39,344 nt of DNA from Acetobacteraceae bacterium (GTDB lineage: Bacteria; Pseudomonadota; Alphaproteobacteria; Acetobacterales; Acetobacteraceae): the NCBI GenBank assembly GCA_019750465.1, contig JAIEOP010000012.1, positions 1-39,344 of the forward strand, given 5' to 3'. How positions within the stretch are numbered: position 1 is the first letter of the stretch; each line of letters begins with the position of its first letter. The notes under the pieces were generated by a model, which searched no databases, was not told the origin of the DNA, and was given only the letters and a program-made list of their open reading frames with translations. A program made the position numbers and the translations under genes. Positions 4,908 through 39,344 of this stretch are shown here, piece after piece.

Positions 4908-5761
4908 ATGCGAACACCGATCGTGTCGCGCCGGAAGGCGCGCGGGACAGGGTCGCGCCGGAAGGCGCGCGGGACAGGGTCGCGCCGGAAGGCGCGCGGG
5001 ACAGGGTCGCGCCGGAAGGCGCGCGGGACAGGGTCGCGCTGGTCACCGGCGCGGCACGCGGCATCGGCGCCGCCTGCGCGGCGAAGCTGGCGACGCTCGG
5101 CCATCCCGTGGTGCTGGCGGACGTGATCCCGGAGGTGGAGGGCACCGCGGCGGCGCTGCCGAACGCGCGCGCCATCCGCCTCGACGTCGCCGATCCGGCG
5201 GCCGTCGCCGCGCTGCCCCAGGCGTTGGACGACTGGTGGGAGCGGCTCGGCATCGTCGTGAACAATGCCGGCATCTCGCCGAAGGTGGATGGGCGGGCGC
5301 GGCCGATCCGCGAGATGCCGCTGGAGGAGTGGAGCCGCGTCCTCGCGGTGAACCTCACCGGCGCCTTCCTCGTCTCGCAGGCCTGCATCCCGCCGCTGCG
5401 CGCGCGGCGCTGGGGACGCGTGGTGATGATGACCAGCCAGGCGGCGCGCGGCAAAAGCGTGATCGCCGCGGCGCACTACGCCGCCGCCAAGACCGGGCTG
5501 ATGGGCTTCGCGCGCAGCCTGGCGAGCGAACTCGGCCCGGACGGCATCACGGTGAACAGCGTGGCGCCCGGGCGCATCGACACGCCGATGGCGCAGGGCG
5601 CGGCGGCGGGGGTGAACGATGCCTTCCTCGCGCAGATCCCGCTGCGCCGGATCGGCACGCCGGAGGAGGTGGCGGAGGTGGTGGCCTTCCTCGCCTCCGA
5701 CGCCGCCGGCTATCTCAGCGGCGCGACGATCGACGTGGGTGGCGGCAGCTTCATGCCGTAG
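4904..5761 (+). CDS. SDR family oxidoreductase with a repetitive N-terminal extension
   Basis: A 285-residue classical short-chain dehydrogenase. The ATG at 4904 overlaps the stop of the alcohol dehydrogenase gene (ATGA). Residues 7-42 are four exact copies of the nonapeptide RVAPEGARD, encoded by the 27-bp repeat array described separately. The normal SDR fold starts right after it with RVALVTGAARGIG at 43-55. The NNAG motif is present, and the catalytic residues are S178, Y192 and K196 (YAAAK). The protein ends in a GGGSFMP tail. Without the array it would be about 249 residues, the usual SDR size, so the insert is extra and probably disordered. It is likely an NAD(P)-dependent partner in the same pathway as the two genes upstream. 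Confidence 0.9.
   Translation: MNANTDRVAPEGARDRVAPEGARDRVAPEGARDRVAPEGARDRVALVTGAARGIGAACAAKLATLGHPVVLADVIPEVEGTAAALPNARAIRLDVADPAAVAALPQALDDWWERLGIVVNNAGISPKVDGRARPIREMPLEEWSRVLAVNLTGAFLVSQACIPPLRARRWGRVVMMTSQAARGKSVIAAAHYAAAKTGLMGFARSLASELGPDGITVNSVAPGRIDTPMAQGAAAGVNDAFLAQIPLRRIGTPEEVAEVVAFLASDAAGYLSGATIDVGGGSFMP
4925..5032 (+). repeat. four perfect 27-bp tandem repeats inside the SDR gene
   Basis: Units lie at 4925-4951, 4952-4978, 4979-5005 and 5006-5032, all identical, with the first 6 bases of a fifth copy at 5033-5038. Each unit begins gtcgcgccgg and contains the small hairpin gcgcc-ggaa-ggcgc. Since 27 is a multiple of three, gain or loss of copies keeps the reading frame and changes the protein by nine residues. 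Perfect identity at every position suggests recent expansion by slippage or unequal exchange. Confidence 0.97.
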
Positions 5762-5849: not shown

Positions 5850-6590
5850 ATGAACCAGCTCGATCTCAAGGGCCAGGTCGCCGTCGTCACCGGCGGCGCA
5901 CGCGGCATCGGCCTCGCCGTGGCGGAGCGCGCCACGGCCTCGGGCGCGCGCTGCGCCGTCTGGGACGTCGACCTCGCGGAGGCCGAGGCGGTGGCGAAGC
6001 GCCTCGGCGGCTTCGCCGCGCAGGTGGACGTGACGGATGACGGCGCCGTCGCCGCCGCGCTGGCGGCGACCGAGGCGGCGCTCGGCCCGGTCGGTATCCT
6101 CGTCGCCAATGCCGGCATCACCGGGCCGAACGCGCCGGTGGAGGACTACCCCATCGACGCCTGGCGCCGGGTCATCGAGATCGACCTCACCGGCGTCTTC
6201 CTGTGCTGCCGCGCCGTGGTGCCGGGCATGCGCGCGCGGAACGCCGGCCGCATCGTCAACATTGCCTCCATCGCCGGCAAGGAGGGCAACCCGAACGCCG
6301 CGGCCTACTCGGCGGCGAAGGCAGGGGTGATCGGCTTCACCAAGTCTCTGGGCAAGGAACTCGCCGCCACCGATGTCCGGGTGAACTGCGTGACGCCGGC
6401 GGCGGCGAAGACCGACATCTTCAAGCAGATGACCCAGGCGCAGATCGACTACATGCTCTCCAAGATCCCCGCCGGCCGCTTCGCCGGCGTCGGGGAGATC
6501 GCCGCCCTGGTCTGCTGGCTGGCGAGCCCCGATTGCAGCTTCTCGACGGGCGGCGTGTTCGACGTCTCCGGCGGGCGGGCCACCTACTAA
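5850..6590 (+). CDS. SDR family oxidoreductase (FabG-like)
   Basis: A 246-residue classical SDR. It has TGGARGIG at residues 14-21 for NAD(P) binding, NAG at 87-89, and the catalytic set S140, Y153, K157 (YSAAK). It ends in the usual GGVFDVSGGRATY segment. Length is standard. The acidic residue D39 or D41 after beta-2 (WDVDLAEAEA) favours NAD over NADP. The start at ATG 5850 places the Rossmann strand at the expected distance. It lies 88 bases after the previous SDR, with a hairpin in between, and is the last gene of the plus-strand cluster. Its stop codon abuts the hairpin element at 6590. FabG-like sequence does not imply fatty acid synthesis here; a catabolic dehydrogenase is likelier from the neighbours. 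Confidence 0.92.
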   Translation: MNQLDLKGQVAVVTGGARGIGLAVAERATASGARCAVWDVDLAEAEAVAKRLGGFAAQVDVTDDGAVAAALAATEAALGPVGILVANAGITGPNAPVEDYPIDAWRRVIEIDLTGVFLCCRAVVPGMRARNAGRIVNIASIAGKEGNPNAAAYSAAKAGVIGFTKSLGKELAATDVRVNCVTPAAAKTDIFKQMTQAQIDYMLSKIPAGRFAGVGEIAALVCWLASPDCSFSTGGVFDVSGGRATY

Positions 6591-6748
6591 TACCAACGCG
6601 CGTTGATGTTGACACATCAACGCCCCTCAGACGCCGGGCGCCGCGCATCCGCGCGGCTTGGCTTCGCGCCATTGGGCGCGGGCCGCGTCCGCGGCCTCGG
6701 CGCGCCATCTGGCGCGCCGCATGGGTCAGCCTTTGACCGAGTTGGTAT
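6590..6748. repeat. hairpin-array element with terminal inverted repeats
   Basis: The segment is bounded by ataccaac (6590-6597) and its inverted copy gttggtat (6741-6748). Inside are consecutive stems: gcgttgatgt/acatcaacgc with loop tgac (6600-6623), gccgcgc/gcgcggc (6640-6657), cgcgcc/ggcgcg (6665-6680), ggccgcg/cgcggcc (6681-6696), ggcgcgcc/ggcgcgcc (6699-6718) and ggtca/tgacc (6724-6738). The first 38 bases recur without a mismatch at 39276-39313. It sits between two convergent genes and supplies the last codons of the dsbA-like gene. It looks like a REP- or MITE-like dispersed element that may also act as a two-way terminator; the element class is inference. Confidence 0.75.
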
Positions 6749-7538
6749 AAGCAGCCAGCAGCCCCCGCTCGCGAAGGATGCCGAGCGCCTGGCGCAGCGC
6801 GTTGGCCATGGCTTCCGGCGGCATGGCGCCGGAGAACAGCACATGCCCGGCCAGCGCAAAGGTCGGCACGCCGGAGAGGCCGAGCTGACGGAAGCCGGCA
6901 TCCTCGGCCAGCACCTTTGCCTCGCCGGCATCGCTGGCCAGGTGGTTGGCGACGGCCGGCGCATCCATCCCTGCCGCGCCGGCAATCGTGGCAAGCTCGG
7001 CCGCGTCGCCGATGTCGCGCCCGTCCTGGAAATAGGCCCGGAACAGCGCCTCCACGACGCGGTCCTGCAGCGCCGGCCCGCCCTCCTCGCCGGCCAGCGC
7101 GATCAGGCGGTGCGCGGGCACGGTATTCGGCGTGCGCAGCATCCGGTCGTGCCGGAACTCCAGCCCCGCCGCGGCACCGGCGGCGGCGACCTGCGCGTCG
7201 AGCGCGCGCGACCGCGCCTCGCTGCCGAACTTGGCGGCGCGGTACTCGGCCCGCGCCACGCCCTCGCGCGGCATGTCGGGGTTGAGCTGGAAGGGGCGCC
7301 AATGCACCTCGAAGCGCTCGCCATCCTCGGCGCCCAGGCTGGCCATGGCGGCCTCCATGTTGCGCTTGCCGACCCAGCACCAGGGGCAGATGGCGTCGGA
7401 GACGATGTCGAGCCGCACGGCGGGGCGGGCCGTGGCGCCCGCCGGCAGCAGCATCGGCCCGGTGCTGCTGCCGGGAACCTCGCAGCCGTCCGGTCCGCAG
7501 AGGGCTGCGGTGCCGTCCCCGGTGACGCGGTCTTCCAT
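6726..7538 (-). CDS. DsbA family oxidoreductase (FrnE-like)
   Basis: A 270-residue protein of the FrnE/2-hydroxychromene-2-carboxylate isomerase branch of the DsbA superfamily. The redox motif is C51-P-W-C54 in DAICPWCWVGKRNME, followed by the helical insert and the cis-proline region GVPTFALAG near residue 235. There is no signal peptide, so the protein is cytoplasmic, as FrnE proteins are. The start ATG at 7538 has a ggagcgg ribosome-binding site. Residues 1-40 form an extra leader holding a second cysteine pair, C14 and C19, in LCGPDGCE. The last residues, AYTNSVKG, are encoded inside the hairpin element. It is divergent from pobA. Likely role: thiol-disulfide or glutathione-linked redox chemistry; substrate unknown. 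Confidence 0.88.
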   Translation of the reverse strand: MEDRVTGDGTAALCGPDGCEVPGSSTGPMLLPAGATARPAVRLDIVSDAICPWCWVGKRNMEAAMASLGAEDGERFEVHWRPFQLNPDMPREGVARAEYRAAKFGSEARSRALDAQVAAAGAAAGLEFRHDRMLRTPNTVPAHRLIALAGEEGGPALQDRVVEALFRAYFQDGRDIGDAAELATIAGAAGMDAPAVANHLASDAGEAKVLAEDAGFRQLGLSGVPTFALAGHVLFSGAMPPEAMANALRQALGILRERGLLAAYTNSVKG

Positions 7539-39251: not shown

Positions 39252-39275
39252 GCGCGGCTCCCGCCCAGCCGCCTC

Positions 39276-39313
39276 ATACCAACGCGCGTTGATGTTGACA
39301 CATCAACGCCCCT
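39276..39313. repeat. second copy of the 38-bp repeat with hairpin
   Basis: This is a perfect 38-base match to 6590-6627, including ataccaac at its left end and the hairpin gcgttgatgt/acatcaacgc with loop tgac (39286-39309). It lies upstream of the DUF1772 gene start at 39251. The sequence after it differs from that in the first copy, so the GC-hairpin array is not repeated in the 31 bases left before the window ends. Confidence 0.95.
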
Positions 39314-39344
39314 TGTAAGTCTCGCTCACCGGCCTTCCCCCATG

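Follow-up and report, generated by a model that had tools for sequence, protein, structure and literature searches.

A miniature inverted-repeat element with TNA target duplications and a conserved multi-hairpin core between two convergent genes of an Acetobacteraceae bacterium

The window analyzed here comprises 39,344 nucleotides of an Acetobacteraceae draft genome (contig JAIEOP010000012.1). In its left part, a short-chain dehydrogenase gene and a DsbA-like gene converge on an insertion bounded by short inverted repeats and duplicated TAA trinucleotides (Table 1). The first-pass annotation, made from the sequence alone, had placed a 159-bp element here between ataccaac and gttggtat. Both of these sequences are present, but the unit proper measures 157 bp (positions 6591 to 6747), since the outermost bases belong to the TAA duplications. 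Further left in the window, at positions 4925 to 5039, a 27-bp unit is repeated in tandem without mismatch (4.3 copies, 100% match) and reads in frame as DRVAPEGAR repeats on the N-terminal side of a short-chain dehydrogenase open reading frame.

Table 1. Positions of genes, element parts and predicted hairpins in the window
Feature	Position	Strand	Remarks
Short-chain dehydrogenase gene (PF00106/PF13561)	5850..6590	+	Ends in duplicated TAA
Target duplication TAA, left copy	6588..6590	.	Also the stop codon of the short-chain dehydrogenase
MITE	6591..6747	+	157 bp; 12 identical copies with TNA flanks
Left terminal inverted repeat TACCAAC	6591..6597	+	Subterminal TGACACAT at 6610-6617
Leader hairpin hp0 (GCGTTGATGT-TGAC-ACATCAACGC)	6600..6623	+	Fold; same design in other genera
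Conserved core CCCTCAGACGCCGGGCG-hp1-CTTGGCTTCG-hp2-hp3	6624..6700	+	77 nt; alignments A1 and A2, models R1 and R2
Helix A, 6633-6638 (GCCGGG) with 6657-6662 (CTTGGC)	6633..6662	+	Two conserved G-U positions
hp1, inside helix A	6641-6646 with 6651-6656	+	
hp2, 6665-6670 with 6675-6680	6665..6680	+	Fold, covariation
hp3, 6681-6686 with 6691-6696	6681..6696	+	Fold, covariation
hp4, 6698-6706 with 6711-6719	6698..6719	+	Length and sequence vary between copies
hp5, right end, 6724-6728 with 6734-6738	6724..6738	+	Differs in subfamily B
Right terminal inverted repeat GTTGGTA	6741..6747	+	
Target duplication TAA, right copy	6748..6750	.	
DsbA-like gene (PF01323)	6726..7538	-	Codons 6726-6749 (YTNSVKG and stop) come from the insertion (duplicated TAA and element end)
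TCA (39274-39276) and left end of longer related element	39274..39344	+	First 37 element bases as in the MITE, then TGTAAGTCTCGC...; contig ends

A genome-wide count of copies, proposed as a check in the first-pass annotation, was made in the host draft genome (6.04 Mb, 522 contigs). At least 12 perfect full-length copies were found, the window copy included (identical over 159 bases), and at least 23 copies were near full length, the 12 perfect ones among them (at least 98% over 157 to 159 bases). Alignments with E < 1e-12 numbered at least 42, including a few cases in which a single copy was split in two, for about 40 strong matches; as 40 of 332 candidates were scored, all of these counts are lower bounds. 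Beyond the near-full-length copies, partial and variant copies also occurred. The terminal pattern TNATACCAACKC matched the host genome 87 times, compared with no matches for the reversed control. Among 29 complete sequences compared, there were 12 identical 157-mers, several near-identical sequences, shorter forms of 114 to 145 bp without some of the internal hairpin sequence, and a subfamily with a different right end (CAACAACTCGGCGCGTTGGTA), hp5 being different in subfamily B. The 157-bp form is thus short and lacks a transposase gene, the longest open frame that enters it from either end having 54 codons.

The 23 near-full-length copies were chosen regardless of their flanks, and when these were read by eye, identical TNA on both sides, a TACCAAC start and a GTTGGTA end were observed in 21. 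The two exceptions were L002, with TCA and TCG, and L019, with an altered left end. In a second count in the host genome, the middle base of TNA agreed at 27 of 29 sites (chance probability, 1.3e-14); the script demanded a left-hand TNA and a right-hand TNA or TCG at each site, so that only the sameness of the middle base tests duplication, and 5 of the 34 loci supplied had no such pair. For units outside the host genome, where TNA was not demanded, identical trinucleotides were found at both ends in 19 of 24, with 35 further left ends for which no right end was found. The base next to the TNA target was C or G in 27/29 cases before it and in 25/29 after it, as read by eye in a GC-rich genome.

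One clean case of an empty site, the comparison that the first-pass annotation had also proposed, was provided by the copy on host contig 107. A transposase-like gene is split by this copy, with the break at the duplicated TAA; the relative of the gene in G001, the one other genome of the genus compared here, matches HTH_Tnp_1. The site is uninterrupted in three relatives, two in the host genome (C354, 94%; C281, 88%) and one in G001 (C228, 88%). A second site, on contig 169, aligns across the junction in another genome (G025) at 73%, with gaps. On host contig C413, two units stand in tandem, of which the second carries the MITE and the first has an unoccupied TAA target. Given the copy number, the TNA duplications, the terminal repeats and the unoccupied site, the unit at 6591 to 6747 is a miniature inverted-repeat transposable element (MITE), and the dispersed non-autonomous element that had been listed as one of three options is the one borne out.

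An exact 38-bp recurrence had been noted within the window, and it was reproduced at 6590 to 6627 and 39276 to 39313, with none expected by chance. The second occurrence had been taken as a part of the same element; the left end is indeed common to both, but the 38-mer at 39276 is the start of a different, longer element whose body lies outside the assembly. At seven contig ends, the right edge of the window among them, about the first 38 bases are those of the MITE and are followed by TGTAAGTCTCGC. Many host contigs end 60 to 80 bases inside an element, as is expected when an assembler meets a longer repeat. The longer element is possibly the autonomous parent of the MITE.

A duplicated TNA target is a feature of IS5-family (IS1031-type) elements. 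The TNA duplication of the MITE fits this family but is insufficient for membership, and with MITE ends forming the termini of none of the 25 PF01609 loci in the incomplete host draft assembly, the MITE was not assigned there. Neither an autonomous copy nor a transposase gene with MITE ends was found in that assembly. A search of 16 relatives with the terminal pattern returned MITEs in some and no autonomous element, and among the retrieved loci, the few long pairs with matching ends resembled chance or the ends of two copies. A plasmid collection and a contig scan with the window's own end gave no match. At host C396:3697-4362, a truncated PF01609 transposase fragment adjoins a MITE remnant that breaks off at the core start, and the fragment lies outside the boundary of the remnant. 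We infer that a DDE-type transposase supplied in trans would recognize the TACCA... ends with subterminal TGACNCAT and would insert the MITE at a TNA target, leaving behind the 3-bp duplications that are observed.

Because TNA covers TAA, TGA and their complements, an insertion into a stop codon would leave that gene intact. Of 29 insertions in the host genome, 11 coincided precisely with a predicted stop codon, more than the 20 among 183 TNA sites of the window that were intergenic or on a stop would lead one to expect (binomial, 1.4e-4), a comparison based on crude gene calls with slightly different settings for each set, in which target choice and selection against other insertions are not separated. 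In the window, the insertion would have struck overlapping convergent stops, leaving the dehydrogenase with its TAA and letting the frame of the DsbA-like gene run into the element. That the right end of the element encodes the last residues of the DsbA-like protein had already been noticed, and this held: the protein ends in LRERGLLAA followed by YTNSVKG, whereas its same-genus homologue in G001 ends in LREKGLIAA. The DSBA domain match stops short of the seven added residues, at residue 248 of 270, and with the flanks joined in the absence of the MITE, the frame would meet an overlapping TAG immediately after LLAA. In G001, a gene of 640 amino acids separates the relatives of the two flanking genes, so that the comparison amounts to support from protein ends and not to a strict orthologous empty site for the window copy. 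Judged from these sequences, the MITE insertion lengthened the DsbA-like protein by seven residues. TNA duplication at stop codons is a simple route into dense genomes, one that can do little harm and add short protein tails.

The six consecutive stems previously described were also predicted by folding, as six consecutive hairpins within a closing stem of the terminal inverted repeats. The RNA fold of the 159 bases had an energy of -98.2 kcal/mol, compared with -73.1 +/- 3.9 for 200 dinucleotide shuffles (z -6.5, 0/200 as good), and the DNA fold of the same bases gave z -6.6. Within this structure, a core was recognized that is shared with other genomes and has the layout CCCTCAGACGCCGGGCG, variable hairpin, CTTGGCTTCG, two more variable hairpins and mostly then a fourth. 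Element bases, mostly 35 to 112, recur in 55 of 299 genomes of the family. Model R1 of the core gave 54 matches at E <= 0.01 in the host genome and was matched in 24 of 150 family genomes (18 of 102 genera), with seven genomes reaching at least 27 matches. Model R2 was matched in 30 of 385 alphaproteobacterial genomes, representing 25 of 277 genera and, by our own count, 19 families. The host is included in each of these totals, and copy numbers are lower bounds, with about 27 candidates scored per genome in the R1 family scan and about 12 in the R2 class scan. Among the matches listed, hosts of the core were Falsiroseomonas, Neoroseomonas, Roseomonas, Roseococcus, Rhodovarius, Azospirillum, Sphingomonas, Qipengyuania and Croceicoccus, and the core was also present on 17 IMG/VR contigs. 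Units complete from terminal repeats and TNA duplications to leader hairpin and core were found in further genera and families, and several of them carry TGACNCAT close to the tip. Terminal repeats were absent around many cores elsewhere, so that mobility by the MITE route is supported for the complete units.

We therefore read the whole, with a probability of about 0.86, as a recently amplified MITE that is moved in trans, inserts at TNA and carries a conserved multi-hairpin interior likely transcribed as an mRNA 3'-end structure. The interior is a module with compensatory stems that is also found in many copies without recognizable terminal repeats, and the core would most likely be transcribed at the 3' ends of neighboring mRNAs. 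The best-placed competitor is that the sequence is primarily a structured RNA (3'-UTR) element selected at the RNA level, for which the MITE ends are a mere vehicle and whose fold protects or punctuates mRNA 3' ends or binds a protein via the invariant blocks. We hold this only tentatively, as the less probable account, although the structured RNA option raised in the first-pass annotation gained weight from the compensatory changes described below.

In alignment A1 (31 sequences), changes on both sides were seen in 12 of 22 predicted pairs. Alignment A2 (52 sequences), which adds Azospirillum, Kiloniellales, Sphingomonadales and one Rhodospirillales metagenome-assembled genome (MAG), had 95.2% of its cells paired, and 201 cells were changed on both sides, compared with 77.1 +/- 5.2 after shuffling; the covariation score was 0.393, compared with 0.049 to 0.072 for slid partners. 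Of the five measures, two separated less sharply from the shuffles, with 14 pairs with change on both sides against 12.6 shuffled (33/500 shuffles as high) and 31 further pair types against 26.1 (7/500 as high). A1 holds 31 of 35 cores, 11 loci having been left out by hand, and A2 holds 52 of 61 loci, 9 having given no pattern match, and core conservation is for this reason overstated to some degree. The core stems change in a strongly compensatory way, as the first-pass annotation had suggested checking, and this favors selection of the RNA. So does the polarity given to one strand by the invariant block and by the two G-U positions of the helix GCCGGG/CTTGGC, which suggest that the strand bearing CCCTCA is the folded one; that helix, however, is nearly invariant and varies too little for covariation to test it. 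Selection on hairpin DNA during transposition, or exchange between copies, could also keep the stems paired. In searches of Rfam, window positions 6400 to 6950 scored at best 19.1 bits against a gathering threshold of 70, and none of seven loci of relatives scored above the gathering threshold. A known Rfam RNA was ruled out by these scores, and the lack of a family speaks against the structured RNA account.

Change at orthologous sites was examined in 12 pairs of loci with similar flanks, host-genome MITE loci being left out. The core differences per 75 bases, counted without gaps, were 0, 0, 1, 2, 3, 13, 19, 24, 43, 46, 49 and 52, and the flanks of the five least-different pairs were 91 to 97% identical. 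One of these five is an orthologous site in three species of one genus, where the core was identical at 90/90 bases with flanks differing by 3 to 7%; the four further pairs had 0 to 3 core differences in 75 with flanks 94 to 97% identical. Both observations favor an RNA under selection, as does the pair that differs at 13 bases, with flank identities of 96% and 91%, in which, by our own reading, ten of the 13 make up five compensated pairs; conversion from another copy would explain this pair as well as point changes would. Against it, the six most-different pairs (19 to 52 of 75) indicate uneven constraint, although their flank matches are more distant or one-sided and some may not be orthologous. 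Together these pairs suggest constraint on the core at some sites but not all.

The position of cores relative to genes was read from loci of the family. Of 71 loci, 3 had no pattern match and 8 were not counted, including repeats of another locus, which left 60, and 38 of these had two clean neighbors according to a rough gene caller. The neighbors were convergent at 21 loci, tandem at 16 and divergent at 1, a bias toward gene 3' ends and away from divergent promoters, and the rarity of divergent neighbors agrees with a 3'-UTR role. Between tandem genes, however, the two orientations of the core were found 8 and 8 times, unlike the pattern of a strand-specific mRNA element, and a placement of cores co-oriented behind stop codons was ruled out by this equality. 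At three loci (L192, L197, L198), a reverse-oriented core has its end, GAGG, shortly ahead of a possible ATG start, where it could serve as a ribosome-binding sequence. A sigma-70 promoter at the element was ruled out.

The other readings fared worse than that of a MITE with a conserved interior. A bidirectional intrinsic terminator between the convergent genes, a further option of the first-pass annotation, would accord with the strong GC hairpins at this location and with the T-runs bordering some copies in other genomes. It was weakened by the finding of no intrinsic-terminator-like site at 6400 to 6950 and by the spread of the sequence as a mobile unit that is also found inside genes, and we consider it improbable. 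A REP-like element moved by a Y1/RAYT transposase is less probable still: the sequence is palindromic, extragenic and of high copy number, with tandem arrays in some genomes, but Y1_Tnp (PF01797) was detected in 0 of 10 carrier genomes, mostly drafts, with the control positive in 5 of 14 known genomes, and the MITE instead shows duplicated TNA targets and inverted repeats at its termini. Chance GC-rich structure plus one duplicated 38-mer, conceivable in a high-GC host, is refuted by the approximately 40 strong matches, the fold z of -6.5 and the covariation, and the outcome that the first-pass annotation had tied to it, only two copies and no covariation, is contradicted on both counts.

Among described elements, the nearest to the MITE were compared by their published descriptions. 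ERIC (IRU, RU-1) of enterobacteria is an intergenic element of about 127 bp with 7-bp terminal repeats, target duplication and a structured transcript, and fusions extending the C terminus of a protein are described (PMC2229807, PMC2759123). The MITE resembles ERIC in its 7-bp terminal repeats, target duplication and C-terminal protein extension and differs in duplicating TNA where ERIC has TA at its termini, a comparison of descriptions and not of sequences. The MITE is moreover GC-rich and alphaproteobacterial, and its core also occurs without terminal repeats. The CIR elements of Caulobacter and Brucella are intergenic repeats of alphaproteobacteria whose two-arm RNA fold is phylogenetically conserved (PMC2229807); their conserved GANTC does not occur in the window element and was seen in 2 of 52 cores, and membership was ruled out by this test. 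The same source presents Correia/NEMIS as a MITE with a structured transcript and RUP as a MITE proposed to be driven by IS630-Spn1 (PMC2229807), and these differ from the present MITE in their hosts and in having TA at the termini, again by description and not by sequence. The CGTC-tagged REPs are palindromes of 20 to 40 bp found mostly in alphaproteobacteria, with no known transposase, and are reported missing from Acetobacteraceae (PMC3733652); the MITE differs from them in being a unit of 157 bp with several hairpins, terminal repeats and a target duplication. In kind, the element is a MITE with a structured interior, closest to ERIC, NEMIS and CIR, with the CGTC REPs as the nearest alphaproteobacterial palindromes. 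Among the matches listed in the open-access literature, there was no recognizable description of the MITE or its core.

Most bacterial MITEs are, to our knowledge, restricted to a small set of related species, and a fold backed by compensatory change across families is rare among them. One core in 19 sampled families, with or without mobile ends, is unusual for such elements, and its distribution lets one ask whether selection on the fold serves the element or the host. A speculative extension, which we think doubtful, is that of a class-wide mobile RNA module, in which an RNA-selected core would be carried through Alphaproteobacteria on MITE ends, landing by TNA in stop codons as a portable 3'-UTR cassette that outlives its terminal repeats.

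Several further arrangements of the core were observed in other genomes. Co-oriented tandem arrays of cores with a spacing of about 98 to 115 bp were seen at L131, L138, L149 and L365. At L203, L211, L213 and L218, which come from several genomes, the core is immediately preceded by a separate palindrome that has ATACCAGCGG...CCGCTGGTAT-like ends and a short T-run. The uncultured Rhodospirillales MAG C5coas_bin-2163 holds a sister MITE with TACCATCG ends in very many near-identical copies, often at contig ends (e.g., L237, L242, L295). At L243:836-921, the core starts about 14 bases past a tRNA-Leu gene.
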